Source: Actinomadura opuntiae
GTDB lineage: Bacteria; Actinomycetota; Actinomycetes; Streptosporangiales; Streptosporangiaceae
NCBI RefSeq assembly: GCF_030283205.1
Contig: NZ_JASNWF010000002.1
Coordinates: 1 to 64,000 of the forward strand
Direction of reading: 5' to 3'
DNA: 64,000 nucleotides
The notes below the pieces were generated by a model. That model was given only the letters and a program-made list of their open reading frames with translations. It had not been told where the DNA came from and made no database searches. The translations under genes and the position numbers were made by a program. Each line of letters begins with the position of its first letter. Within the stretch, counting starts at the first letter, position 1. This document shows, one piece after another, positions 3,860 through 16,600 of the stretch.

Positions 3860-4876
3860 TCAGTGCGGGTTGGTCGCCAGGAGCTCGGCCAGGAGGTCGT
3901 CGAGGGTGACGATGCCCGCGAACTCGCCGCGGTCGCCGTTGACGACGGCGAGCTGGGCGCGGGCGCGGCGCATCCGGCTGACGGCGTCCAGGACGGTCGT
4001 CCGCGCGGTGAGGGTGGGCGCCGGGTAGGCGAGCTCGCCCGCGGGGCGGTCGCCGTCCGGTTCGGTGATGGCGGCGCGGACGTGGACGATGCCGGTGGCG
4101 GCGCCGTCCGGGCCGCGGACGAGGAGGCGGCTGTGGCCGCTGGCGGTCGCGGTGCGGCGGATGTCGGCGGCGGACGCGCCCGCGTCGATGGTGGTGACCG
4201 AGGACGCGGGGATGACCAGGTGCCGGACGGTCGCCTCCCGCGCGGAGATCGCGCGGCGCAACAGCTCGTGGTCGTGCCGCCCGATGAGGCCGAGGCGCCG
4301 GGACTCGCCGACCAGGTGGCTCAGCCCGGCCGGGTCGGTGTGGTCGTCGAGCTCGTCGCGGGGGGTGACCCGGACGAGCCGCAGCAGCCCGTTGGTGGCG
4401 GCGTTCAGCGCGGCGAGGACGGGCCGGGACACCTTCGCGAACGCGCGGAACGGCAGCGCCAGGAAGATCGCCGACCGTTCCGGGTTACCGATCGCCCAGG
4501 ACTTCGGCGCCATCTCGCCGACGACCATGTGCAGGAACGTGATCACGCCGAGGGCGCAGGCGAGGGCGGCGGCCTTCGCGCCGGCCTCGGGGACGCCGGC
4601 CGCGTGCAGCGGCGGTTCGAGGAGGTGCTCGAACGCGGGCTCGGTGACGATCGCGAGGCCGAGCGAGCACATCGTGATGCCGAACTGCGCGCCGGCGAGC
4701 ATCAGCGACAGCTCGCGGACGCCCGCGACGGCCGCGGCCGCGGGGCGGCTGCCCCGGCCGGCGGCGCGTTCGAGCTGGGACCGGTTGGCGGCGACCAGCG
4801 CGAACTCCGAGGCGACGAAGAAGCCGTTCCCGATCAGCAGCAGGACGGTGATGAGCAGGGAGGTCAGCGGGTCCAC
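3860..4876 (-). CDS. CNNM/hemolysin-C-like membrane protein with CBS pair (second of two)
   Basis: A 338-residue protein of the CNNM/CorB-type family linked to Mg2+/Co2+ homeostasis. Residues 1-190 form a DUF21 transmembrane domain (NGFFVASEFALVAANRSQLE, MLAGAQFGITMCSLGLA, VVGEMAPKSWAI). Residues 200-335 form two CBS motifs ending in the FAGIVTLDDLLAEL signature. Unlike the upstream paralogue it lacks a C-terminal CorC_HlyC domain. The GTG at 4876 was chosen because it follows a strong GAGGAGG ribosome-binding site and places the start 13 bases inside the end of the upstream gene, which is good evidence for translational coupling. The two proteins may work as a heterodimer (inference). Confidence 0.88.
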   Translation of the reverse strand: MDPLTSLLITVLLLIGNGFFVASEFALVAANRSQLERAAGRGSRPAAAAVAGVRELSLMLAGAQFGITMCSLGLAIVTEPAFEHLLEPPLHAAGVPEAGAKAAALACALGVITFLHMVVGEMAPKSWAIGNPERSAIFLALPFRAFAKVSRPVLAALNAATNGLLRLVRVTPRDELDDHTDPAGLSHLVGESRRLGLIGRHDHELLRRAISAREATVRHLVIPASSVTTIDAGASAADIRRTATASGHSRLLVRGPDGAATGIVHVRAAITEPDGDRPAGELAYPAPTLTARTTVLDAVSRMRRARAQLAVVNGDRGEFAGIVTLDDLLAELLATNPH

Positions 4877-6255
4877 GACACCTCCTCGGGGCGCGGGGCG
4901 GCGCAGGGCGGGTCGGAGATCTCCGGGCGGTCCGCGGGCGCCGGCGCGGCGGCCGTGCGGATCCGGATCTTCTCGGCGACGCGGCGGGCGACGCTGACGA
5001 CCTCCAGCTCGGCGTGCCCGGACGAGCCGTCCAGCGCGACGGTGAGGCGGTCGCCGGGGCAGGGCAGCCGGCGCAGCTCGGCCATGACGAGGCCGCCGAG
5101 GGTGTCGTAGGCGTCGCCCTCGGGCAGGTCGAGGCCGGTGAGCCGGCCGACCTCGTCGATCCGCATGCCGGCGTCGACCAGCCAGGACCCGTCGGGGCCG
5201 CTGGTCGGGGCGTCCTCGCGGGCGTCGGTCTCGTCGGTGATCTCGCCGACGAGCTCCTCGGCGACGTCCTCGAAGGTGAGGATGCCGGCCAGGCCGCCGT
5301 ACTCGTCGACCACGCAGGCGAACTCCTCGCCGGACTCGCGCATCCGCTCGATCACCCCGTACAGCGGCTGGCTGCCGGGGACGAGCAGGGCGGGCCGGGC
5401 GATCCGCCCGATCGGCGTGGCGGGGTCGAGGGCGTCGTCGGCGACCTCGCGGACGCCCGCGACGCCGACGACGTCGTCGACCTCGCCGTCGTAGACGGGG
5501 TAGGCGCTGTGCCCGGTCTCGCGGATCAGCGCGACGAGGTCGGCGGCCGGCGCGGTGGCGGGCAGCGTGCTGACCTGCGGGCGCGGCACCATCACCGCGT
5601 CGGCGGTGAGGTCGCCGAACGACAGCGCGCGGTCGAGCAGGCCGGACAGGTCGGCGGGCAGGTGCCCCGAGCTCTGCGACTTGCCGATGATGTCGCCGAG
5701 CTCCTCGAGGGTGGCGCCGCTGTGCAGCTCCTCGACGGGCTCGACGCCGACGGCGCGCAGCAGGCGTTCGGCGGCGCGGTCGAACAGCCGGATCAGCGGG
5801 CCCGCGACCGTCAGGTAGAGCAGCGTGGAGCGGGACAGCGCGCGCGCCAGCGACTCGGCGCGAGCCAGGGCGAGGTTCTTGGGGAACAGCTCGCCCAGCA
5901 GCATCTGGATCAGCGTGGCCAGGACGAACCCGGTGGCCAGCGCGATCGCGCCGGTCGCGCCCGCCGGCACGCCCGCGGCGTCCAGCAGCGGCCGTATCAG
6001 CTCGGCGAGGGCGGGCTTGGCGATGAACCCGACGACCAGCGTGGTCATCGTAATGCCGAGCTGCGCGCCCGACAGCATGAACGACAGCCGGCCGATGACC
6101 CTGACGGCCCGGCGGGCGGACGCGTCGCCGCGCGCGGCGGCCTGCTCGAGGGACGCGCGGTCGGCGGCGACGTAGGCGAATTCCTGGGCGACGAAGTATC
6201 CGGTGGCGGCGGTGAGAACGATCACCGCGAGCACTCCCAGCACCGCCGTCAGCAT
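4864..6255 (-). CDS. CNNM/CorC-type transporter-like protein with CBS and CorC_HlyC domains
   Basis: A 463-residue membrane protein. Residues 1-190 form the DUF21 transmembrane domain (GYFVAQEFAYVAADRASLEQ, MLSGAQLGITMTTLVVGFIA, LLGELFPKNLALARAE). Residues 200-330 carry a CBS pair with ARPxLLVPGSQPL and the family hallmark VVDEYGGLAGILTFEDV. Residues 345-430 match the CorC_HlyC domain (DAGMRIDEVGRLTGLDLPE, DTLGGLV). CNNM/CorB proteins are implicated in Mg2+ export; the older name hemolysin is historical and implies no toxin. It is first in a two-gene unit and overlaps the next gene by 13 bases. Start is the ATG at 6255. Confidence 0.9.
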   Translation of the reverse strand: MLTAVLGVLAVIVLTAATGYFVAQEFAYVAADRASLEQAAARGDASARRAVRVIGRLSFMLSGAQLGITMTTLVVGFIAKPALAELIRPLLDAAGVPAGATGAIALATGFVLATLIQMLLGELFPKNLALARAESLARALSRSTLLYLTVAGPLIRLFDRAAERLLRAVGVEPVEELHSGATLEELGDIIGKSQSSGHLPADLSGLLDRALSFGDLTADAVMVPRPQVSTLPATAPAADLVALIRETGHSAYPVYDGEVDDVVGVAGVREVADDALDPATPIGRIARPALLVPGSQPLYGVIERMRESGEEFACVVDEYGGLAGILTFEDVAEELVGEITDETDAREDAPTSGPDGSWLVDAGMRIDEVGRLTGLDLPEGDAYDTLGGLVMAELRRLPCPGDRLTVALDGSSGHAELEVVSVARRVAEKIRIRTAAAPAPADRPEISDPPCAAPRPEEVSWTR

Positions 6256-6450
6256 GGGGCACCGGGTCTGTGACTGGGGTCCGACACCGCGGACTCACCA
6301 CTCCTCTCATCTGGGCCTACCTGCGTAACGCCGCCTCGGGCGGCGGGGTTCCCGGCGCACCAGGGTACGGGCCCGCGCCGATCGTCCCACGGAGGCGGGG
6401 GCTGTCGCGCGGGTCAGCACCTTGTCCTCCGCCAGTGTCACGGATCACAC

Positions 6451-6478
6451 TTGTCGGAGAGCGCACGCCCGATACTTG
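6451..6478 (+). promoter_or_regulatory. Possible sigma-70-type promoter of the pknG-like operon
   Basis: TTGTCG at 6451-6456 and TACTTG at 6473-6478 are separated by 16 bases and lie about 70 bases before the first gene of the kinase operon. The fit to the consensus is only fair, but this is the sole suitable pair in the 295-base gap between the divergent CNNM and kinase units. The rest of the gap holds a GC-rich hairpin (CGCCGCC-TCG-GGCGGCG near 6330-6350) and no gene that I can support. Confidence 0.35.
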
Positions 6479-6550
6479 AGCGGTCCTTGCTCCCAGACCG
6501 CCGGTACGGGGGCGCGCACGGGGACCGAGAGAACCGAACGCGGGGCTGAG

Positions 6551-7795
6551 GTGGACGAGAGCGGGCCCGGGGCCGCCGCGCCCATGAGCCGGGAGGGGAT
6601 CGACCATGCCCTCAAGTCGCTCCAGGCCGACCGGGAGCGGATCGCGGCGTCGCTGCTGGAGCTCGACGGGCACACCGGCGTCCGGCTGCTGAAGGGCGCC
6701 CGGCTCGCCGGGGAGACGTGGCGGCGCTGGGAGGCGGTGCGGGCCCGGCTGGCCACGCTGTGGCGGGTCTTCGACGCCTACCAGCGGGTGCTGGACGAGG
6801 CGTGCGCGCTGCGCGGCCGGTCGTCGCGGCCGGACGCGGCGGCGCTGGTGGAGCTGACCGGGCTGCTGTCGGGGCGGTCGGTCGAGCTGCCGGACGGCGA
6901 GATCCCGCTGGAGGACCGCACGCTGCTCGGCCCGCAGGACAAGCGCGCCACGCTGGACGAGGCGGTCGGGATGATGTCCGACGCGTACGCGTTCGTGGCG
7001 AAGGAGGTCGCGGCGGCGGACGCGGCGTGGTCGGCGCTGCTGAAGCCGCTGGAGCGGGCGGAGAAGAGCTGGCGGAAGACGGCGCGGCTGGCGCACTCCC
7101 TCGACGGCACCCGCCATCCGGAGCTGGACCGGCTGGGCCGCGAGCTGACGGCGCTCGGGCGGCTCGTCCGCACCGATCCGCTGTCGCTGTGCCCGGGCGG
7201 CAAGCCGGACACCTCGCGGTTGGACCGGGTCCGCGCGTCGCTGACCTCGATCGGCGACGAGCTGGCGGGGGTCGCCCGGCTCCGCGACGAGTACCCCGAG
7301 CTGGTCGCGGGCCTCGCCGAGGCCGTCGAGCGGGTCGAGGCGACCGAGCGGGCGGCCTGCGAGGCGCACGCGGCGGTGCTGCTGAAGATCCACGCGCCGA
7401 ACGTGCCGGAGCCGGCGCGGGGGCGCGGCGGCGCGCTGCGCGATCGGCTCGCGGCGCTGGAGCGGCTGCGCGAGGCGGGCCGCTGGGTGGAGATGGCCGG
7501 CTGCGTCGCCGCGCTGGAGGCCGCCGCCGCGCAGGAGCTGGAACGGGCGCGCGACGACCTGCGTCTCAGCCAGGGACTCCTCGACCGGCGGGGCGAGCTG
7601 CGCGGGCGGCTGGAGGCGTACCGCGCCAAGGCGGCGCGGCTCGGGCTCGCCGAGGACGAGGCGCTCGCCGCGCTGCACGGGCAGGCCCGGGACGTGCTGT
7701 GGACGGCGCCGTGCGACCTGCGCCGGGCGACCACGCTGCTGGCCGAGTACCAACGCGCGATCAGGGCGCGTGAGAACGGGACGGGGACCCCATGA
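6551..7795 (+). CDS. Unrecognised helical protein, first gene of the PknG-like operon
   Basis: A 414-residue soluble, Ala/Leu/Arg/Glu-rich protein predicted to be nearly all helix, with no signal peptide or membrane segment. Heptad-like stretches run through residues 20-110, 170-260 and 300-400. I recognise no catalytic motif or family. Its place at the head of a seven-gene signalling operon, with its stop overlapping the kinase start in an ATGA, suggests it acts with the kinase as scaffold or regulator (inference). Start choice is uncertain: the GTG at 6551 is preferred, the ATG at 6584 is an in-frame alternative, and longer upstream extensions have unlikely composition. Confidence 0.75.
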   Translation: MDESGPGAAAPMSREGIDHALKSLQADRERIAASLLELDGHTGVRLLKGARLAGETWRRWEAVRARLATLWRVFDAYQRVLDEACALRGRSSRPDAAALVELTGLLSGRSVELPDGEIPLEDRTLLGPQDKRATLDEAVGMMSDAYAFVAKEVAAADAAWSALLKPLERAEKSWRKTARLAHSLDGTRHPELDRLGRELTALGRLVRTDPLSLCPGGKPDTSRLDRVRASLTSIGDELAGVARLRDEYPELVAGLAEAVERVEATERAACEAHAAVLLKIHAPNVPEPARGRGGALRDRLAALERLREAGRWVEMAGCVAALEAAAAQELERARDDLRLSQGLLDRRGELRGRLEAYRAKAARLGLAEDEALAALHGQARDVLWTAPCDLRRATTLLAEYQRAIRARENGTGTP

Positions 7796-10248
7796 CCCGA
7801 TGCACCCAGCCCGGCTGCACCGGCGAGGTCGGCGCGGACGGCTTCTGCGACGTCTGCGGGATGGCGCCGCTCGCCGAGCCGCCGCCCGCCGACCCGGTGA
7901 GCGCGGGCGCGTCGTCCGCGTCGTCCGGCTCGGGCTCCTCCCTGGGCGCGGCTCCGGTGACGATCGTGAACGCGCCCGCGACGTCGGTCGAGCGGCCGAA
8001 CGGCGCGGCCCCGGGAACCGGCCCGTCCGGCACCGGCCCGTCCGGCGCAGGATCGTCGGGCGCGGGGTCGTCGGGCGCGGGGTCGTCGGGCGGGCCGGGG
8101 AGCGAGCCGACCGGCGGGTCCGGGACGAGCGGGTCCGGGGGGTCGGGCCGCACCGCGTCCCGCGGCGGGACGCGCGGGACGGGCTCCACCGGCTCGGCCC
8201 GGCGCGGGATGCTCGGCGCGGGCCTGGTCGAGGTGCCGCCCGTGCCGTTCCGCGACCCGGCGTCGGCGATCATGGAGAACCCGGAGGTCCCGGAGAACCG
8301 GCGGTACTGCAGCCGGTGCGGGGAGAAGGTCGGCCGCAGCCGGGACGGCCGGCCGGGCCGCACCGAGGGGTTCTGCGCGACCTGCGGGCACCGGTTCTCC
8401 TTCACCCCGAAGCTGAAGCCCGGCGAGGTGATCGGCGGGCAGTACGAGGTGCTGGGCTGCCTGGCGCACGGCGGGCTCGGCTGGGTGTACCTGGCCCGCG
8501 ACCACAACGTCAGCGAGCGGTGGGTGGTGCTGAAGGGCCTGCTGGACACCGGCGACGCCGACTCCCTCGCCGCCGCGGCGGCCGAACGGGCGTTCCTGGC
8601 CGAGGTCGAGCACCCCAACATCGTCAAGATCTACAACTTCGTGCGGCACGACGACTCCGGCTACATCGTCATGGAGTACGTCGGCGGCCGGTCGCTGAAG
8701 GAGATCCTGCTCGAGCGCCGCGACCGGGAGGGCGAGCAGGCGGCGCTGCCGCTCGGCCAGGTGCTCGCCTACGGCCTGGAGGTGCTGAGCGCGCTCGGCT
8801 ACCTGCACGGCGTCGGCCTGCTGTACTGCGACTTCAAGCCGGACAACGCGATCCAGTCCGAGGAGCAGCTGAAGCTGATCGACCTCGGCGGCGTGCGGCG
8901 CGCGTTCGACGTCGACAGCCCGATCTTCGGCACGCCCGGCTACCAGGCGCCGGAGATCGGCTCGTCGGGCCCGTCGATCGTGTCGGACCTGTACACGGTG
9001 GGCCGGACGCTCGCGGTGCTGAGCTTCCCGTTCCGCGGCTACACCCGGCGGCACCTGCGCAGCCTGCCGCCGCGCGAGGAGGTGCCGCTGTTCCAGCGGC
9101 ACGAGTCGTACCACCGGCTGCTGCGCCGCGCCACGCACCCCGATCCGGCCCGCCGGTTCCAGAGCGCCGCCGAGATGGCCGAGCAGCTCACGGGGGTGCT
9201 GCGCGAGGTGCTGTCGGCGGAGGACGGCACGGCCCGTCCGGCGCCGTCGCCGCTGTTCGGCCCCGAGCAGCACACCGCCGGGACCGACATCATCGACCCC
9301 GACCCCTCGCAGGACGGCGCGGCGCCGGTGCTGGCGCCGCTGGAGCCGGCCGCCGCGGCGATCGCGCTGCCCGTCCCACTCGTGTACGGCTCCGATCCGG
9401 CCGCCGCGTTCCTGGCCGGGCTGACCGCCCGCGACCCGGGCGACCTCGCCGCGGCGCTGGCCGCCGCGCCGGTGGCCTCGCGGGAGGTGCGGTTCGCGCT
9501 GGTCCGGGTCCGGATCGAGCTGGGCGACCTGGAGCTCGCGGGGCGGCTGCTGGAGGAGCTGGACGCCGAGCAGGCCGACGACTGGCGGGTCGACTGGTAC
9601 CGGGGCGCCCGCGCGCTGGCGGACGGCCGCGCCGCCGACGCCGCCGCCGTGTTCTCCGACCTGTACGACCTGATGCCGGGGGAGCAGGCGCCGAAGCTGG
9701 CGCTCGGCTTCTGCAAGGAGCTGCTGGGCGAGCACGTGGTCGCCGGGGGCTTCTACGCGACGGTGTGGCGCACCGACCCGACGCATGTCAGCGCCGCGTT
9801 CGGGCTGGCCCGCGCCTATCTGGCGGGCGGCGACCGGGGCAGCGCGGGACGCGTCCTGGACTCGGTGCCGCGCATCTCCAGCCACTATCTCGCCGCGCAG
9901 CTCGGCGCGGTCGGGGCGGCGGTCCGGGGCCGTCCGGCGGCGGAGCTGAACGCGGCGGCGCTGGTGGACGCGGGACGGCGGCTGCGGTCCCTGCGCCTCG
10001 ACACCGAGCGGTACTCGGCGTTCGTCGCCGAGGTGCTGGAGGCTGCGATCGCCTGGCTGCGCGCCGACCGGACCCCGGCGCAGCTGCGTCCAGAAAAGGA
10101 CATCCTCGGCATACCGCTCGAAGAGCCTCGACTGCGGGCGAAGCTGGAGGACACTTACCGGGTGCTCGCCAAGCTCGCGGACGGCCCCGACCACCGCCAC
10201 GCGATGGTCAGACGCGCCAACGCCGTCCGCCCGAGGACGCTGTTCTGA
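7792..10248 (+). CDS. pknG: PknG-like serine/threonine protein kinase with zinc ribbons and TPR domain
   Basis: An 818-residue cytosolic kinase with the PknG domain order. An extra N-terminal four-cysteine ribbon (C4, C9, C19, C22) comes first, then a Ser/Gly/Pro linker to about residue 150. A rubredoxin-like metal site at about 171-200 (CSRCGEKVGRS... FCATCGHRFSF) follows. The kinase domain at about 211-470 has the PknG-specific motifs AHGGLGWVYLARD, VVLKGL (ATP lysine), LLYCDFKPDN in place of HRDxKxxN, and LIDLGG in place of DFG. A helical TPR-like C-terminus fills about 530-815. In mycobacteria PknG phosphorylates the FHA protein GarA in response to amino acids; the same role here is inferred. 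It overlaps the preceding gene by 4 bases. Confidence 0.93.
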   Translation: MTRCTQPGCTGEVGADGFCDVCGMAPLAEPPPADPVSAGASSASSGSGSSLGAAPVTIVNAPATSVERPNGAAPGTGPSGTGPSGAGSSGAGSSGAGSSGGPGSEPTGGSGTSGSGGSGRTASRGGTRGTGSTGSARRGMLGAGLVEVPPVPFRDPASAIMENPEVPENRRYCSRCGEKVGRSRDGRPGRTEGFCATCGHRFSFTPKLKPGEVIGGQYEVLGCLAHGGLGWVYLARDHNVSERWVVLKGLLDTGDADSLAAAAAERAFLAEVEHPNIVKIYNFVRHDDSGYIVMEYVGGRSLKEILLERRDREGEQAALPLGQVLAYGLEVLSALGYLHGVGLLYCDFKPDNAIQSEEQLKLIDLGGVRRAFDVDSPIFGTPGYQAPEIGSSGPSIVSDLYTVGRTLAVLSFPFRGYTRRHLRSLPPREEVPLFQRHESYHRLLRRATHPDPARRFQSAAEMAEQLTGVLREVLSAEDGTARPAPSPLFGPEQHTAGTDIIDPDPSQDGAAPVLAPLEPAAAAIALPVPLVYGSDPAAAFLAGLTARDPGDLAAALAAAPVASREVRFALVRVRIELGDLELAGRLLEELDAEQADDWRVDWYRGARALADGRAADAAAVFSDLYDLMPGEQAPKLALGFCKELLGEHVVAGGFYATVWRTDPTHVSAAFGLARAYLAGGDRGSAGRVLDSVPRISSHYLAAQLGAVGAAVRGRPAAELNAAALVDAGRRLRSLRLDTERYSAFVAEVLEAAIAWLRADRTPAQLRPEKDILGIPLEEPRLRAKLEDTYRVLAKLADGPDHRHAMVRRANAVRPRTLF
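8044..8088 (+). repeat. Three tandem 15-bp units within the kinase linker
   Basis: Three consecutive 15-base units (consensus GGCGCGGGGTCGTCG, starting at 8044, 8059 and 8074) encode GAGSS repeats in the flexible linker between the N-terminal ribbon and the rubredoxin domain of the kinase. Copy number probably varies between strains and changes only linker length. Confidence 0.8.
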
Positions 10249-10250
10249 CG

Positions 10251-11234
10251 ATGAACGCGGACAGGAACGCCGCCATGGACCCCGGCGGGGCCGTGCGCGG
10301 ATCCACGGCCCGGGACCGGGACGCGGCCTGCGGCGACTGCGGGAGCTGGGCCGTCGCGGCGGACGGGTTCTGCGAGGCGTGCGGGCTGCGGCAGCCGAGC
10401 GGGCACGAGCATGTCGAGGCGGAGCTGGTCGTGGACGGGCGGTCCGCGCTGGGCGCCGGCATCAGCGACCTCGGGCTGCGCCGCTCCCGCAACGAGGACG
10501 CGTTCGCGCTGGCGGCGCTGCCGCACGGCGCGTGCGGGGTGGTCTGCGACGGGGTGGCGACGGCGCCCGGGTCGGAGGAGGCGGCGCGGGCCGCGGCGCA
10601 GACGGCGTCGGCCGTGCTGCTCGACCGGATCGCGGCGGGCGCCGACCCCGGCGAGGCGACCCGCGAGGCGGCCGAGCAGGCGGGCCGGGCCGTCGCGGCG
10701 CTCGCGGACGGCGCGCCCGGCGGGTCCGGGCCGGCGTGCACGTTCGTCTCGGCGGTCGTCGCCGCGGGCCGGGTCACGGTCGGCTGGCTGGGCGACAGCC
10801 GCGCCTACTGGCTGTCGCCGTCCGGATCGTTCCCGCTGACCAGGGACGACTCGTGGGCGGTGCGGGCGGTCGCGCGCGGAGAGCTGAGCGCGGAGGCGGC
10901 GTGGGCGGACCGCCGCGCGCACCTGCTGACGGCCTGGATGGGCGCGGACGCGGGCGCGTTCGACCCGCACCTGGCCTCGTTCGAGCCGTCCGGCCCCGGG
11001 CTGGTGCTGATCTGCAGCGACGGGCTGTGGAACCGCCTGCCGGACGCGGCGGCGCTGGCCTCCCTCGCGCTCCCCGGCCGGGGCGCGTGTGGGCCGGAGG
11101 CGGCGGGCGGGCCGATGGGGGCGGCGCGGCGGCTGCTGGGGGCGGCGCTGGACGCGGGGGGACACGACAACGTCACGGTGGTGGTCATCGAGTTCCCGCC
11201 GCCCGAGCCGACGACGAGGGAGCCCGGCAGATGA
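10251..11234 (+). CDS. PP2C-family serine/threonine phosphatase with N-terminal zinc ribbon
   Basis: A 327-residue protein phosphatase. Residues 1-45 hold a four-cysteine ribbon (C27, C30, C41, C44, the second pair in DGFCEACG) like that of the neighbouring kinase. Residues 60-315 are a PP2C/PPM domain with its metal-binding motifs intact: RRSRNEDAF, VVCDGVA, WLGDSRAYW, ICSDGLWNRL and GGHDNVTVVVIEF. It should therefore be an active Mn2+/Mg2+-dependent phosphatase. The likely job is to reverse phosphorylation by the kinase two bases upstream, or to act on the FHA protein. It starts at the ATG at 10251; its stop overlaps the next start in an ATGA. Confidence 0.92.
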   Translation: MNADRNAAMDPGGAVRGSTARDRDAACGDCGSWAVAADGFCEACGLRQPSGHEHVEAELVVDGRSALGAGISDLGLRRSRNEDAFALAALPHGACGVVCDGVATAPGSEEAARAAAQTASAVLLDRIAAGADPGEATREAAEQAGRAVAALADGAPGGSGPACTFVSAVVAAGRVTVGWLGDSRAYWLSPSGSFPLTRDDSWAVRAVARGELSAEAAWADRRAHLLTAWMGADAGAFDPHLASFEPSGPGLVLICSDGLWNRLPDAAALASLALPGRGACGPEAAGGPMGAARRLLGAALDAGGHDNVTVVVIEFPPPEPTTREPGR

Positions 11235-12595
11235 GCGAACGTCCCGAGTTCACGATCCGCGTGGACCAGAATCCCTACCTCCCGGCGGGCGGGCGGGAGA
11301 TGCACGCCATCGTCACCGTCGAGGCGCGCTCGCAGGACGCCGACTCCGACGACGCCGGGCCGCGGGCGGGCTCGGACGCCGTGGAGATCATCATCATCGA
11401 CACGTCCGGGTCGATGTCCTACGGCGGCAAGATGGCCGCCGCCCGGCGCGCGGCGAAGGCGGCGGTCGGGGTGCTGCGGGACGGGGTGCGGTTCGCGGTC
11501 GTCGCGGGTGCCAACCGGCCCCGGATGATCTACCCGCAGGGGGAGCGGCTGGTCGAGGCGAGCGCGTCCACGCGGCGCAGCGCGGCCAACGCGGTGGCCC
11601 GGCTCGACGCGGCCGGCGGCACCGCGATCGGCTCGTGGCTGCGCCTGGCGAACCGCCTGTTCGACGGCCAGGACGGCGCGGTGAAGCACGCCATCCTGCT
11701 CACCGACGGCAAGAACCAGCACGAGAGCGACGAGGAGCTGGACGCGGCGCTGCGGGTGTGCTCGGGCCGCTTCCTGTGCGACGCGCGCGGCGTCGGCACC
11801 GACTGGGAGGTCGCCGAGCTCCGCAAGATCACCTCGGCGCTGCTGGGCGGGTTCCTGGACGTCCCCGACCCCAAGGACCTGGAGGCCGACTTCCTGGCGA
11901 TGACCCGGGCGGCGATGAGCAAGCAGGTCGCGGACGTGGCGCTGCGCGTGTGGACGCCGCAGCAGGCCGAACTGAAGTTCCTCAAGCAGATGGTGCCCGC
12001 CGTGGAGGACCTCACCGGCCGGCACGCCGAGTCCGGGACGCAGACCGTCGACTACCCGCTCGGCGCCTGGGGCAGCGAGAACCGCGAGTACCACCTGTGC
12101 GTGCAGGTCCAGCCGGGCGACATCGGGCGGCAGATGCGCGCCGCGTGGGTGAAGCTGATCGCGCCCGGCGCGGAGGGCGAGGCCGAGCGGGAGCTGGCGT
12201 CCGGGAACGTCCTGGCCGAGTGGACCGACGACGAGGCCAGGTCGACGCGGATCAACGGGCGGGTCGCGCACCACACCGGCCAGTCCGAGCTCGCCGACGC
12301 CATCCAGGAGGGCCTGGAGGCCAGGCGCGAGGGCGACGAGGACACCGCGACCGCCCGGCTCGGCCGCGCCGTGGTGCTCGCCCGCGAGGTCGGCAACGAG
12401 CAGATCGCCGGGCTGCTGGACAAGGTGGTGGACGTCATCGACCCGGCGACCGGGACCGTCCGGCTGAAGGCGGACGTCGCCAAGGCCGACGAGATGTCGC
12501 TCGACACCCGCTCGGTACGGACCGTCCGGACCCGCAAGGACGACCTGCCACCGCACGCCCCGCCGGGCACGCCGCCGGACGAGGCCGGGAGCTGA
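11231..12595 (+). CDS. von Willebrand factor A domain protein of the kinase operon
   Basis: A 454-residue cytosolic protein. After a short beta-rich N-terminus a VWA domain spans about 50-225. Its metal-ion-dependent adhesion site is complete: DTSGSMS (about 57-63), a GGTAIGSWL threonine and LLTDGKNQ. The remainder is a beta-sandwich-like region and a helical tail (about 350-420) followed by a charged, proline-rich end. VWA domains mediate Mg2+-dependent protein contacts; in this operon it is a plausible adaptor or substrate for the kinase-phosphatase pair. No signal peptide is present, so it is not a surface adhesin. It overlaps the phosphatase gene by 4 bases and the FHA gene follows after 5 bases. 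Confidence 0.88.
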   Translation: MSERPEFTIRVDQNPYLPAGGREMHAIVTVEARSQDADSDDAGPRAGSDAVEIIIIDTSGSMSYGGKMAAARRAAKAAVGVLRDGVRFAVVAGANRPRMIYPQGERLVEASASTRRSAANAVARLDAAGGTAIGSWLRLANRLFDGQDGAVKHAILLTDGKNQHESDEELDAALRVCSGRFLCDARGVGTDWEVAELRKITSALLGGFLDVPDPKDLEADFLAMTRAAMSKQVADVALRVWTPQQAELKFLKQMVPAVEDLTGRHAESGTQTVDYPLGAWGSENREYHLCVQVQPGDIGRQMRAAWVKLIAPGAEGEAERELASGNVLAEWTDDEARSTRINGRVAHHTGQSELADAIQEGLEARREGDEDTATARLGRAVVLAREVGNEQIAGLLDKVVDVIDPATGTVRLKADVAKADEMSLDTRSVRTVRTRKDDLPPHAPPGTPPDEAGS

Positions 12596-12600
12596 GGCCC

Positions 12601-13383
12601 ATGCCGGTATGCCCGAGCGGGCACGTGTCCGCCGCCGACGACTACTGCGACGTGTGCGGCGACCTCATGGAGGGCGCGCCGCGCGCCGAGCTCACCATGG
12701 TCGAGCGCGGCGGCGGGCCGATCGCCGAGCCCGCGGCCCGCGAGCGCGGGGCCGCCGCGCCGCCGCCGGAGCAGGAGGCGGCGGCCCCCGAGACCTGCCC
12801 GGACTGCGGCACGCCGCGCAGCGGGCGGTTCTGCGAGAACTGCGGCTACGACTTCGCGACCGGCGCCGCCCGGTCCGGCGGGGAACCGGGACCGGGACCG
12901 GGACCGGAGCCCGCGCCGCCCGGCGAGCCGTCCGCGCCCCCCGAGTCCCCCGGATCGTCCGTGGCGTCCGGCTGGTCTGCGGTGATCGTCGCCGACCGCG
13001 AGTACTACTCCTCCGTGATCGCGCAGGAGGGCCCCGACTCGGCGACGCTGGAGTTCCCGCCCTACTGCCCCGAGCGCCGCGTCCCGCTGGCCGGCGAGCA
13101 GATCCGGATCGGCCGGCGCAGCGCGTCCCGCGCGATCGCCCCGGAGATCGACCTCGGCGGCCCGCCCGAGGACCCTGGCGTCTCGCACCTGCACGCGGTG
13201 CTGCTCGCCCGGCCGGGCGGCGGCTGGCTGCTCGTCGACCCCGGCTCCACCAACGGGACGACGGTGAACGGCGGCACGGAGCCGATCGCGGTGAACGTCC
13301 CGGTCCCGGTCGGCGACGGCGACCGCGTCCACGTCGGCGCCTGGACGACCATCACGCTGTCCCTTCAGGAGGGCACGCCATGA
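12601..13383 (+). CDS. FHA-domain protein with two N-terminal zinc-ribbon motifs
   Basis: A 260-residue protein. The first ribbon (C4, H8, C16, C19, ending DDYCDVCG) and the second (C66, C69, C78, C81) precede a Pro/Gly linker. A forkhead-associated domain spans about 155-257, with the phosphothreonine-binding core IGRRS, VSHLHAVL and DPGSTNGTTVNG. FHA domains read phosphothreonine, so this is a likely phosphorylation-dependent partner of the kinase upstream. It is not a simple GarA orthologue: the N-terminal ETTS phosphorylation motif known from mycobacterial GarA is not visible. The stop overlaps the next start (ATGA at 13380-13383). Confidence 0.9.
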   Translation: MPVCPSGHVSAADDYCDVCGDLMEGAPRAELTMVERGGGPIAEPAARERGAAAPPPEQEAAAPETCPDCGTPRSGRFCENCGYDFATGAARSGGEPGPGPGPEPAPPGEPSAPPESPGSSVASGWSAVIVADREYYSSVIAQEGPDSATLEFPPYCPERRVPLAGEQIRIGRRSASRAIAPEIDLGGPPEDPGVSHLHAVLLARPGGGWLLVDPGSTNGTTVNGGTEPIAVNVPVPVGDGDRVHVGAWTTITLSLQEGTP

Positions 13384-14894
13384 CGATGACGACCGCGGAC
13401 CCGGCGGCGGGCCCGCAAGCGCCGCCGCCCGAGGACGCCGCGGCGGTCGCCGGTCCGGCGCGCCGGGGGCGGCTCGCGACGTTCGCGCGCGGGCGGTGGC
13501 TGCGGACGATCCCGGGCCGGATCCGCGCGCACGTCGCGCTCGTGCTGGCCGCGCTCGTCGCGCTGCTGGCCCTGCTGACGGTCGCGGTCGGGAACGCGCG
13601 CGACTCCGTCCAGACGATCGGGCACGACGCGGGCCCGCAGGTCGTCGCGACCAGCACGCTGTACTTCGCGCTCAGCGACATGGACGCGCAGGTGTCCAAC
13701 ATCCTGCTGATCGGCCGGCAGCACGACCTCGGCATCGGCTACGACCGGACGCTCCAGGTGTACGAGCGGCGCCGCGCCGAAGCCGACTCCGCCGCGGTGC
13801 AGGCCGCGCAGCTCGCCGGGCGCGACCCGGCGCTGCGGCAGACCGTCCAGGACGTGCTGGACGGCCTCGGCCGGTACGAGCGGCTCGTCGGGTCGGCGAT
13901 GCAGTTGAACGAGCAGGCCGGCCATCCGGCGGGGGAGCCGCCGAAGCAGGTCGTCGACGCCTACCGGCAGGCCACCGACCTGATGAAGCTGGAACTGCTG
14001 CCGAAGGCGTACAACATCACGCTCGACACCGGCGCGCACGTCCGGCAGGCGTACGAGACGAAGCGGTCGGCGGTGCTGGCGGGGCGCGACTGGGTCATCG
14101 CCGCCGGGGCGCTGACCCTGCTGCTGCTGGTCGCGACGCAGCTGTACCTGGCGCGGACGTTCCGGCGGCTGCTGAACCCGGCGCTGGTGCTGGCGACGCT
14201 CGGCACCGCCGCGCTCGCCGTCGTCGGGGCGGGCCTGCTGTCGGCGCAGGCCGGGCACATCTGGGAGGCGAAGGAGGACGGCTTCGACTCCGTCCTGTCG
14301 CTGTCGCGGGCCCGGGCCATCAGCCACAGCGCGTTCGCCGACCAGAGCCGCTACCTCCTCGACCCCGGCCGCGCCGACACCTACGAGCAGACCTACCTCG
14401 ACAAGTCGCTGTCGGTGTTCTATCCCGACATCGGCGACAAGCCGCTGAACCTGGAGAACTACTACGCCGGCGTCAGCGGCGAGGTCGGCTCGTACCGGGC
14501 GGGATCCGGGCAGAAGGTGCCGTTCCTCGGCTTCTTCGGGGACGAGGCGCGGACCGCGGACCGTGGCCGCGAGGCCGACGCGCTCCAGCGCACGCTCCGC
14601 GCGTACCAGGCCGTCCAGGCCGACGACCAGCGGATACGCTCGCTCGCGACGTCGGGGGACCGCAGCGGCGCCATCACGCTGCGGATGGGCCGCGAGCGCG
14701 GCGCGATCCACGACTTCGACGCCTACGACGCCGCGCTCGGTTCGCTGACCGCCGTCCACCAGGACGCCTTCACCCGGGCGATCAAGGACGCGGACGGCGG
14801 GCTGCGCGGCTGGAAGGCCGTCCCGCCGGCCGCCGCCGTCATCGCCGTGCTGATCATCGCGGGGGTCCGTCCCCGGCTGGCCGAGTTCCGCTGA
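13380..14894 (+). CDS. glnX: GlnX-like membrane sensor protein
   Basis: A 504-residue membrane protein with four predicted transmembrane helices (about 50-71, 238-258, 264-287, 481-498). These enclose two extracytoplasmic helical domains (about 72-237 and 288-480) that look like bundle-type ligand or partner-binding modules. The order kinase, membrane protein, glutamine-binding lipoprotein matches the mycobacterial pknG-glnX-glnH locus. There the membrane protein passes the ligand state of GlnH to PknG. I assign it by this context and topology rather than by a catalytic motif, as none exists. It is translationally coupled to the FHA gene by a 4-base overlap. Confidence 0.78.
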   Translation: MTMTTADPAAGPQAPPPEDAAAVAGPARRGRLATFARGRWLRTIPGRIRAHVALVLAALVALLALLTVAVGNARDSVQTIGHDAGPQVVATSTLYFALSDMDAQVSNILLIGRQHDLGIGYDRTLQVYERRRAEADSAAVQAAQLAGRDPALRQTVQDVLDGLGRYERLVGSAMQLNEQAGHPAGEPPKQVVDAYRQATDLMKLELLPKAYNITLDTGAHVRQAYETKRSAVLAGRDWVIAAGALTLLLLVATQLYLARTFRRLLNPALVLATLGTAALAVVGAGLLSAQAGHIWEAKEDGFDSVLSLSRARAISHSAFADQSRYLLDPGRADTYEQTYLDKSLSVFYPDIGDKPLNLENYYAGVSGEVGSYRAGSGQKVPFLGFFGDEARTADRGREADALQRTLRAYQAVQADDQRIRSLATSGDRSGAITLRMGRERGAIHDFDAYDAALGSLTAVHQDAFTRAIKDADGGLRGWKAVPPAAAVIAVLIIAGVRPRLAEFR

Positions 14895-14913
14895 CCGGAG
14901 GAGACGACGACCC

Positions 14914-15756
14914 ATGCCCGCCATCCGCGCCGGCGCCGTCCGCGGCGCCGCCCTGGCCTGCACCGTCCTGTCCGCCGCCGGGCTGCTGACGGCGTGCGGG
15001 CTCGGCGGCGCCGACAAGCCGACCATCGCCCACAAGCACTCGCTGACGATCGGGGTGAAGGCCGACCAGCCGAGCCTCGGCGTGAAGGCCAGGAACGGGA
15101 CCTACGAGGGCTTCGACGTCGACGTCGCCACCTACATCGCCGGGCGGCTCGGCGTGCCGAAGGACCGGATCACCTGGCGCACGACGAACTCCTCCGTCCG
15201 CGAGAAGGCGCTCGCCGACGGCACCGTCGACATGATCGTCGCGACGTACTCGATCACCGCCAAGCGCAAGCGGGTCGTCACCTTCGCCGGGCCCTACTAC
15301 GTCGCGCACCAGGACACCCTGGTCGCGCCGGGCAACGGCGCGGTCCGCGACGTCCGCGACCTGAAGGGCCGCAAGATCTGCGCGGTGACCGGGTCGAACT
15401 CCTGGCGGCGGGTGATCGAGGAGCGCAAGACCGCCGCGGTGCCGGTGCAGGCGCCGACCTACGGGGCCTGCATGGACGACCTGGCCGCCGGGAAGCTGGA
15501 CGCGGTCTCCACCGACGACCTCATCCTCGCCGGGTTCGCCGCCGGCCACCCCGGCAAGATCATCAACGCGCCGTTCACGGACGAGAAGTACGGCGTCGGG
15601 CTGAAGAAGGGCGACCTGGAGGGCTGCGAGCAGGTCAACCGGGCGATCACCGCCATGTACCAGGACGGCACGGCCGCGCGGCTGCTGCGCAAGTGGTTCG
15701 GCAGGTCGGGCCTGAAGCTCACCACGAGCGTGCCGCAGTTCGAGGGCTGCAGCTAG
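14914..15756 (+). CDS. glnH: GlnH-like amino-acid-binding lipoprotein
   Basis: A 280-residue periplasmic-type binding protein of the SBP_bac_3 family. The signal peptide ends in the lipobox LLTAC (C28), so it should be tethered to the outer face of the membrane. Family motifs include LTIGVKADQPSLG, GTYEGFDVDVATYIAGRLG, MIVATYSIT..RKRVVTFAGPYY and LKGRKICAVTGS. No ABC permease or ATPase gene is adjacent, which fits a sensing rather than a transport role, as in mycobacterial GlnH. A good GGAGGAG ribosome-binding site precedes the ATG. It is the last gene of the operon and converges on the STAS gene. Confidence 0.9.
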   Translation: MPAIRAGAVRGAALACTVLSAAGLLTACGLGGADKPTIAHKHSLTIGVKADQPSLGVKARNGTYEGFDVDVATYIAGRLGVPKDRITWRTTNSSVREKALADGTVDMIVATYSITAKRKRVVTFAGPYYVAHQDTLVAPGNGAVRDVRDLKGRKICAVTGSNSWRRVIEERKTAAVPVQAPTYGACMDDLAAGKLDAVSTDDLILAGFAAGHPGKIINAPFTDEKYGVGLKKGDLEGCEQVNRAITAMYQDGTAARLLRKWFGRSGLKLTTSVPQFEGCS

Positions 15757-15806: not shown

Positions 15807-16160
15807 TCAGGGCGTGGTGGTGGACGGCAGCGCGCCGATCGCCTCGCGCAGCGTGTCGTAGATCGGGACGAACTTGTCGATCCCGGTGATGCGGAACACC
15901 CGCTGCACCCGCGGCGGCAGCGCCACCAGCGACACGGTGGTGCCGCGCTCCCCGGCGCGGCGGTTCGCGGCGACGATCGCGTTCAGCCCGGTCGAGTCGC
16001 AGAACGTGACCTGCCGCATGTCGACGACCATGGGCTCGCCGGAGTCCACGACCTCGAAGAGGGCCTCCTCGAAACGCGCGCGGGACACCACGTCGATGTC
16101 GCCCTGCACCCGGACGAGGGTGCAGCGTTCGTCCTTCATCAGGCTGATGTCGAAGTCCAT
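15807..16160 (-). CDS. STAS-domain anti-anti-sigma factor
   Basis: A 117-residue single-domain STAS protein. The conserved phosphorylatable serine lies in FCDSTGLNAI (S56), and the fold markers VRVQGDIDVVSRARFE and GIDKFVPIYDTLREAI are present. Such proteins bind an anti-sigma kinase when unphosphorylated and so release a sigma factor. Neither the cognate kinase nor the sigma factor is adjacent. The ATG at 16160 was chosen because an AGAGGTGG ribosome-binding site precedes it; the frame stays open to 16247 but that extension is Arg/Gly-rich and unlike the family. Confidence 0.9.
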   Translation of the reverse strand: MDFDISLMKDERCTLVRVQGDIDVVSRARFEEALFEVVDSGEPMVVDMRQVTFCDSTGLNAIVAANRRAGERGTTVSLVALPPRVQRVFRITGIDKFVPIYDTLREAIGALPSTTTP

Positions 16161-16600
16161 GGCCACCTCTCGCCCCGCTCCACGGGCACCCCGGCCCGAC
16201 TCAGGCGACTCCTCAGGATTGCGCACCCGTGCCCGCAATCCAAGCACTTCCCGGGATAAGGTCCGGGTCGCCCTCCCCCGTCCCGGACCGTAACACCCGT
16301 TCCCGGTCCGGCCGCGGGCGCCCGGTGCCCGGCGCGCCGCCGGGGCGCCGCGCGGGTGCCGCCGAATAACTTACCGCAGAGAAACTTACTGTGCGGTAAG
16401 AAATGGTTTCACGATTGCCGCACCACCCCAATGTGACCGAAGTCCCACCCTCGGATCAAGTCCCCCAATAGCCCGACGGCACCCACCGTGACCAGCGATT
16501 GAACCATTCATTGCCTCCGGGGCGGCGAGAAAAGCAGGTGCTGACCGGGGCACGGATCGGGACAGAGGTTACAGTGGCGGTGGGAAATACAGGAGGCTGG
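16161..16600. other. 440-base intergenic region between divergent STAS and acyltransferase genes
   Basis: No credible gene. The centre (about 16360-16500) is clearly less GC-rich than its surroundings and should hold the divergent promoters. It contains a 9-bp inverted repeat listed separately. The acyltransferase frame stays open upstream to 16499 but lacks a good start there. Confidence 0.6.
16370..16400. promoter_or_regulatory. Inverted repeat, possible operator
   Basis: CTTACCGCA at 16370-16378 and its exact complement TGCGGTAAG at 16392-16400 are separated by 13 bases. The motif AACTTAC also occurs twice as a direct repeat (16368-16374 and 16383-16389). It sits in the AT-richer part of the divergent STAS/acyltransferase promoter region. 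The spacing suits a dimeric regulator better than a terminator; which protein binds is unknown. Confidence 0.5.

Follow-up and report, generated by a model that had tools for sequence, protein, structure and literature searches.

An actinobacterial PknG operon that may couple amino-acid sensing to an ArnA-ArnB-like phospho-switch

Why should the genes of the GlnH-GlnX-PknG amino-acid relay stand in one operon with genes for a PP2C phosphatase, a von Willebrand factor A (VWA) protein and a forkhead-associated (FHA) protein? The question is raised by seven genes in a 64,000-nucleotide stretch of Actinomadura opuntiae DNA (contig NZ_JASNWF010000002.1, positions 1 to 64,000; hereafter, the window). 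Our answer, to which we give an even chance of being right, is that the relay is coupled to a phospho-switch like that formed by ArnA and ArnB in archaea. The analysis used sequence and models only, and its trees are quick ones with midpoint roots. The features concerned are as follows.

6256..6550, + strand: intergenic region, putative operon promoter
6551..7795 (likely start 6584), + strand: HEL, all-helical protein of 403-414 aa (no Pfam match; AlphaFold model)
7792..10248, + strand: PKN, PknG-type Ser/Thr kinase with N-terminal zinc ribbon (residues 4-22), Gly/Ser/Pro-rich linker, rubredoxin, kinase and TPR domains (Pfam, phmmer)
10251..11234, + strand: PPP, PP2C phosphatase with zinc ribbon (PP2C_2, metal-site motifs)
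11231..12595, + strand: VWA, ArnB-like VWA protein with a beta-sandwich split by the VWA domain, a C-terminal helical region and a tail with conserved T426/S428/T431 (VWA_3 and VWA_3_C, fold)
12601..13383, + strand: FHA, FHA protein with two N-terminal zinc ribbons and ArnA-like architecture (FHA, family profile)
13380..14894, + strand: GLX, GlnX membrane sensor with four hydrophobic clusters and C-terminal tail RLAEFR (NF058618, hydropathy)
14914..15756, + strand: GLH, GlnH lipoprotein, solute-binding protein family 3 (SBP_bac_3; lipobox LTAC in the sequence)

All seven genes lie head to tail on the forward strand in the order given by an earlier, sequence-only reading of this DNA, and domain searches agree with that reading in placing kinase, phosphatase, FHA and VWA proteins in one operon. 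The ATGA overlaps that it saw at most junctions come down to three of six (7792, 11231 and 13380), the other three being gaps of 2, 5 and 19 bases. Its naming of PknG, GlnX and GlnH holds. The kinase scores 312 bits with PknG_TPR, 102.7 with rubredoxin and 95.5 with Pkinase, and matches the PknG structure 2pzi at E 3e-162 (phmmer). GlnX, without a match in the Pfam scan, reaches 300.8 bits against NCBIfam NF058618 (cut-off 250), and falls far below the cut-off of the narrow GlnX equivalog NF041460 (57.6 bits, cut-off 780). Its C-terminal motif, R-hydrophobic-x-E-[YF], is present in 156 of 165 GlnX proteins, as well as in the inspected loci that hold only GlnX, GlnH and the kinase; the GlnX termini have been proposed as partners of the PknG TPR domain (PMC6069109). 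GlnH scores 101.8 bits with SBP_bac_3 and, of the six residues whose side chains touch the ligand directly in Mycobacterium tuberculosis GlnH, retains five (R147, T162, S164, R169 and D250). A predicted chain from external amino acid through GlnH and GlnX to PknG is well supported by this homology. ABC-type uptake is ruled out for the genes scanned: no permease or ATPase family was found in the seven operon genes or the eight flanking open reading frames (614-22324, the only part of the window scanned), as the earlier reading held in favoring sensing over uptake.

What, then, does PknG act on? The sequence-only reading implied that the operon FHA protein is a GarA-like reader. That identity is ruled out by its 14.9 bits against the OdhI model NF041660 (cut-off 200) and by a separate GarA/OdhI relative elsewhere in the genome (C1:239441-239830), which scores 199.6 bits, just under that cut-off, with the next best at 56. 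This relative (L112 1483-2112, - strand) starts with a zinc ribbon and carries ESTSTI in place of ETTS. A GarA relative occurs in all 55 genomes tested, 17 of them above the model cut-off, and also in genomes in which no PknG was found (for example G003, G009 and G102). The presence of a GarA relative in the window's own genome and in every tested genome suits a plain PknG-GarA relay, in which GarA is the sole PknG target and the PP2C, VWA and FHA proteins are accessory tuners (a GarA phosphatase, a membrane kinase scaffold) with no switch of their own. So does the N-terminal zinc ribbon of GarA in the window's family, which is like those of the operon proteins and could let GarA reach the same scaffold. 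Against such a relay stand the occurrence of GarA where no PknG was found and the invariant FHA residues and conserved VWA tail described below, which suggest a reader-target pair of the operon's own; we consider the plain relay possible, though rather unlikely.

The reading that we prefer, a relay coupled to a switch, starts from the VWA protein, which had been described as adaptor-like and whose fold points to ArnB. By sequence it belongs with PDB entry 4FX5 (419 bits; 50-51% identity over the model). Its AlphaFold model (mean predicted local distance difference test score, pLDDT, 87.7) retrieves 4FX5 in Foldseek at E 2.7e-56, followed by the ArnB chains of 8S05 at 4.7e-21 (8s05_A) and 3.8e-20; 5A8J, an ArnB paralogue (2.8e-18), ITIH1 (5.2e-16), Sec24 (from 2.6e-13) and Sec23 (from 1.9e-12) rank lower. 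A second-look structure comparison gave Z 45.5 for 4FX5 (root-mean-square deviation, rmsd, 9.1 Å over 404 aligned residues), 25.5 for 8S05_A (5.6 Å, 329) and 22.9 for 5A8J (5.8, 317). Because single VWA domains also reach Z of about 21-25 in shorter alignments, what sets ArnB apart is less its Z than the length of the alignment. The VWA sequence profile likewise finds ArnB 8S05_A (E 5.6e-9) over the VWA domain, and the residues of the metal-ion-dependent adhesion site (MIDAS) are kept in 27 of 27 aligned sequences, the window protein included.

In 8S05, chain A is ArnB and chain C is ArnA (PMC12852372), and the profile of the operon's FHA family finds chain C first (2.7e-11), with ArnA 5A8I at 6.1e-11, plant 1UHT at 4.4e-11 and GarA at 1.6e-8. 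Among 28 aligned FHA proteins, the window protein included, the phosphothreonine-reading residues R172, S195 and N218 are invariant, as are the ribbon ligands C4, H8, C16, C19, C66 and C78; C69 and C81 are nearly so.

The VWA tail is the candidate target of this reader. Its motif is present in 137 of 157 VWA proteins, within which T426 is found in 127 and S428 and T431 in all 137; examples are DEMTLETRSTKT in 49 loci and DEMSLDTRSVRT in 18. The 20 proteins outside the pattern mostly show small variants, a few having quite different tails. In the AlphaFold model, T426, S428 and T431 sit where the last VWA helix ends and the low-confidence tail starts. The tail resembles both the PknG target peptide of OdhI/GarA, SDEVTVETTSVFRADFL (PMC8546545), and the phosphosites of ArnB. 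According to two papers on the Sulfolobus system (PMC12852372, PMC6509490), the kinase ArnC, which has a TPR-like stretch, phosphorylates the helical C-terminal region of ArnB (at an SIETT motif, among others), and the ArnA FHA domain then binds phosphorylated ArnB tightly; unphosphorylated ArnB forms a loose complex via the ArnA zinc ribbon, and nutrients set the state. By profile and fold comparison, the VWA and FHA genes look like a bacterial counterpart of this nutrient-controlled archaeal switch, and our claim is limited to a pair that would work like ArnA-ArnB. The switch part, from PknG to VWA to FHA, is accordingly a proposal, drawn from fold, synteny and the conserved tail.

Do these genes belong together elsewhere? 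Surveys of 101 genomes of the order, 296 of the class and 296 of the phylum, with overlapping draws, gave PknG TPR hits above the cut-off in 63, 99 and 20 genomes, respectively. A selection of these hits, 97 PknG-anchored loci, was scored with profiles built from the window proteins and their relatives, and hence seeded from the window. All seven genes stand on one strand in 55 of the 97 loci, which bears out the co-occurrence across actinobacteria that the earlier reading had named as a check, and recurrence in the same order across families rules out chance or mis-annotation of the cluster. The word 'enlarged', which that reading had applied to the operon, does not fit: among these loci the seven-gene form is commoner than the form with only GlnX, GlnH and the kinase (55 loci versus 7). 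By gene, the same-strand counts are 97 for the kinase (L055 was entered as having it, its kinase and HEL matches sharing one reading frame), 86 for GlnX, 79 for GlnH, 77 for VWA, 72 for FHA, 70 for HEL and 69 for PP2C, part of the misses being contig ends.

Two arrangements cover the 55 complete loci. HEL-PKN-PPP-VWA-FHA-GLX-GLH occurs in the window's own family, f1, and GLX-GLH-HEL-PKN-PPP-VWA-FHA in f20, f19, f28 and f13, with a single case in f6. A further 80 named loci were drawn in through VWA and are kept apart from the 97; in that set, 21 of 30 from Actinomadura have the complete first arrangement and 27 of 31 from Streptomyces the complete second (three others stop before FHA and one is without a visible kinase). 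Seen from the VWA side, the 296 class genomes contain 83 strong VWA-family hits (E<=1e-40), of which 67 have a PknG TPR hit no more than 6 kb away; all but one of the 16 others belong to f19, some at contig ends and some as second copies.

The varying position of the sensor genes brings in another explanation: that the VWA-FHA-PP2C-kinase set controls the cell envelope, development or stress responses, independently of amino acids, and that GlnX/GlnH are just one exchangeable input. The sensor genes do sit at either end of the cluster according to family, or on the opposite strand; divergent PKN-VWA-GLX modules without a GlnH match exist, and position 232 of the GlnH pocket varies. Yet GlnX and GlnH accompany the kinase on the same strand in 86 and 79 of the 97 loci, at least four further loci (L076, L078, L081 and L124) have both on the opposite strand, and the GlnX tail is conserved. 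We hold this explanation to be unlikely. Of those four loci, L076, L078 and L081 (f19) have PknG-like kinases facing an opposite-strand GlnH-GlnX pair, with no VWA, PP2C or FHA matches. In L124 (G542, from another class) all seven genes are matched, with FHA and VWA matches that overlap in place and GlnX-GlnH on the opposite strand.

The seven loci with only GlnX, GlnH and the kinase comprise five in f6 plus L068 and L099. Family f6, which high PknG_TPR scores and an ETTSVF motif in GarA lead us to regard as mycobacterial, is represented by seven loci: five GLX-GLH-PKN only, one PKN alone and one, L067 (G357), with all seven genes. The L067 cluster, on a 25.7 kb contig in a genome whose GarA is without a ribbon, could be acquired or ancestral. 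A quick, midpoint-rooted PknG tree, in which the row for L066 is a 90-residue fragment (later trees took in the full length matched within a single reading frame), joins L067 and the five mycobacterial-like rows in a single starred group. That the three-gene form is derived is a parsimony argument only: L067 may be an acquisition, the tree shows the deeper branch as open, and its root is not an inferred one.

Zinc ribbons offer a further hint of how the parts might meet. In matched regions, paired Cys knuckles occur in 134 of 171 kinases (rubredoxin included), 140 of 144 PP2C proteins and 120 of 147 FHA proteins, and in none of 143 HEL, 158 VWA, 168 GlnX and 156 GlnH proteins. Three divergent kinase-VWA modules (L044, L061 and L069) have a zinc ribbon at the VWA C-terminus, outside the matched region. 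The N-terminal ribbon of the kinase, scored by a pattern without a required aromatic residue that takes in L047 and L099, is found in 134 of 149 loci with VWA versus 2 of 14 without, one of the 14 (L089) having no kinase N-terminus in its contig; seven loci, truncated or lacking a matched kinase start, were omitted. Of the 15 loci that have VWA but no scored ribbon, some carry a ribbon minus one Cys, or one further upstream. A phylogenetic control left 7 independent contrasts, on average 3.9 in the same direction and 0 in the opposite one (median p 0.125), and the tie, which is confounded with clade, is only suggestive. GarA shows a similar, clade-confounded pattern among 50 of the 55 GarA genomes: it has a ribbon in 28 of 30 with VWA, 3 of 8 with PknG and no VWA, and 2 of 12 others (no PknG, or neighborhood unexamined). 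By analogy with 8S05, the VWA protein is suggested as a docking hub for such ribbons.

Several observations weigh against a relay coupled to an ArnA-ArnB-like switch. The VWA profile ranks 4FX5 and two animal VWA proteins ahead of ArnB, and its match to 5A8J is not significant (E 0.12); ArnA and plant 1UHT are level in the FHA family profile, and the window FHA sequence alone matches only 1UHT in the PDB, not ArnA. T426 is not invariant, and the likeness of the VWA tail to known phosphosites was noticed post hoc. The archaeal paralogue ArnE, with the ArnB fold but without the key phosphosites, fails to bind ArnA, and by the authors' account most proteins of this fold play no part in such multi-phosphorylation (PMC12852372); the fold alone, therefore, proves nothing. 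Twenty of the 97 PknG-anchored loci are without a VWA match, and the tie between kinase ribbon and VWA failed its phylogenetic control. At the input end, GlnH has Tyr at W232 and Ala at K161, and position 232 is Gln in 51 of 69 GlnX-first loci; the ligands may therefore differ.

The phosphatase and the helical protein are less constant or less legible parts of the operon. The PP2C metal-site Asp motifs are invariant in 34 of 34 aligned sequences, the window protein included, so the earlier remark that the phosphatase keeps its catalytic motif stands. PP2C is not a constant part of the operon, however: it is found in 69 of the 97 loci, and no match above the cut-off lies between kinase and VWA in five sister copies of the operon from the same genus group (L034, L035, L038, L039 and L042; a weak match in L039). 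There the eraser may thus have been lost or replaced. HEL, without a Pfam match, has an AlphaFold model of mainly long helices (pLDDT 91.8) with no PDB match at E<=0.001; a second-look comparison placed EzrA highest (Z 11.2, rmsd 4.2 over 165), but helical proteins call for caution below a Z of about 13.

A kinase, a phosphatase and a VWA protein in one cluster also resemble TerY-type triads, defence or conflict systems of this kind. Broad domain classes are shared with such systems; in the Pfam scan of the operon proteins no match bears the TerY name. PADLOC at E<=1e-5, however, returned only kinase-domain matches and one weak phosphatase match, with none for VWA, FHA, GlnX, GlnH or HEL, and several families have the cluster, in one or other of its two arrangements. 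A defence role is highly improbable.

Under the coupling of relay and switch, the system might work as follows. An amino acid, probably an acidic one to judge from the pocket residues, would bind the GlnH lipoprotein outside the cell. GlnX would relay the signal, its conserved cytoplasmic C-terminal RLxE[YF]R tail docking on the PknG TPR domain. Active PknG would phosphorylate the GarA relative encoded elsewhere in the genome, just as the published pathway has it, and might act on the VWA C-terminal region in the same way. By analogy with ArnA-ArnB, the zinc-ribbon FHA protein, held loosely to VWA by a ribbon, would then bind the phosphorylated tail tightly via its FHA domain, and the operon PP2C, where present, would reset the switch. 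The weakest part of the scheme is the helical protein, which might be a scaffold.

A broader picture, which we find rather doubtful, is that in actinobacteria other than the mycobacterial group PknG forms the core of a membrane-linked signalling complex with an ArnB-like VWA hub, at which ribbon-bearing kinase, phosphatase, FHA reader and GarA may dock. PknG would phosphorylate the VWA tail and FHA would read it; the pathway with three genes would have arisen from this one by loss, and a single ancient nutrient switch would have been put to use both in archaeal ArnAB and in this system. Work on PknG signalling comes from mycobacteria and corynebacteria; should theirs be a reduced form, then Streptomyces, Actinomadura, Nocardiopsis and others have unstudied output genes.

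The host genome (G000; 10.5 Mb in 62 contigs) carries the full set of seven genes a second time (L032, contig C16:184000-202000), with a kinase about 60% identical to that of the window, so that two specialised circuits may coexist. Each of six genus-group genomes in the order survey, this one included, has two PknG TPR hits, and the nearest VWA among the matches listed is that of Actinomadura nitritigenes (91%). A third, partial GlnX-like gene (L125 9031-10092, - strand, G000:C35) scores 128 bits, under the cut-off, and none of the other six operon genes was found in the 19 kb around it. In the window, the operon's neighbors on both sides are on the opposite strand, a CNNM gene at 4864-6255 and a STAS gene at 15807-16247; upstream, two adjoining CNNM/CBS proteins occupy 3860-6255 (- strand), the second start being our choice. 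HEL could start at GTG 6551 or ATG 6584, the latter being more likely and in agreement with the starts chosen for relatives. The intergenic region 6256-6550 probably holds the operon promoter; a promoter/terminator scan gave no sigma-70-type match and nothing above chance.

In the open-licence literature, we found no paper that pairs PknG with an ArnAB-like module, although the STRING neighborhood in Fig. 2B of PMC6069109 may show some of the genes. Nor did that literature yield a paper joining PknG, PP2C, FHA, von Willebrand, operon and actinobacteria, or one joining TerY, PP2C, vWA, kinase and FHA; papers on PknG with von Willebrand or with ArnB, judged mostly by title, did not make the link. 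In the parts consulted, the ArnAB papers (PMC12852372, PMC6509490) point to the structural kinship of the Catenulispora protein without mentioning PknG.

Among known systems, the GlnH-GlnX-PknG-OdhI/GarA pathway of Corynebacterium and Mycobacterium shares with the window the rubredoxin/TPR kinase, GlnX-family sensor and GlnH lipoprotein in one operon, a GarA relative elsewhere in the genome and the GlnX C-terminal tail. Unlike it, the operon here adds HEL, PP2C, VWA and the zinc-ribbon FHA protein, and its kinase bears a further zinc ribbon at the N-terminus; GlnX is far below the narrow equivalog cut-off, GlnH has Tyr for Trp232 and GarA has ESTSTI for ETTS. The VWA protein shares its core fold, and only that, with the Sec23/Sec24 COPII core (Foldseek), whose cellular role differs; the ArnAB authors draw the same parallel (PMC12852372). 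It is of the same family as 4FX5, the VWA protein Caci_2163 of Catenulispora acidiphila, to which the ArnAB papers (PMC12852372, PMC6509490), in the parts consulted, assign no function. The ArnA-ArnB archaellum repression complex of Sulfolobus (8s05, 5a8i; paralogue 5a8j) likewise pairs a zinc-ribbon-FHA protein with a VWA protein of beta-sandwich/VWA/C-terminal helix architecture and intact MIDAS, with Ser/Thr kinase and phosphatase partners (PMC12852372, PMC6509490). It differs in having PP2A where PP2C stands here; the window's kinase is in the same operon, with a membrane sensor, and its FHA protein has two ribbons. The link to ArnAB gives the orphan structure 4FX5 a candidate function, names residues to test, and ties a bacterial nutrient kinase to an archaeal nutrient switch.

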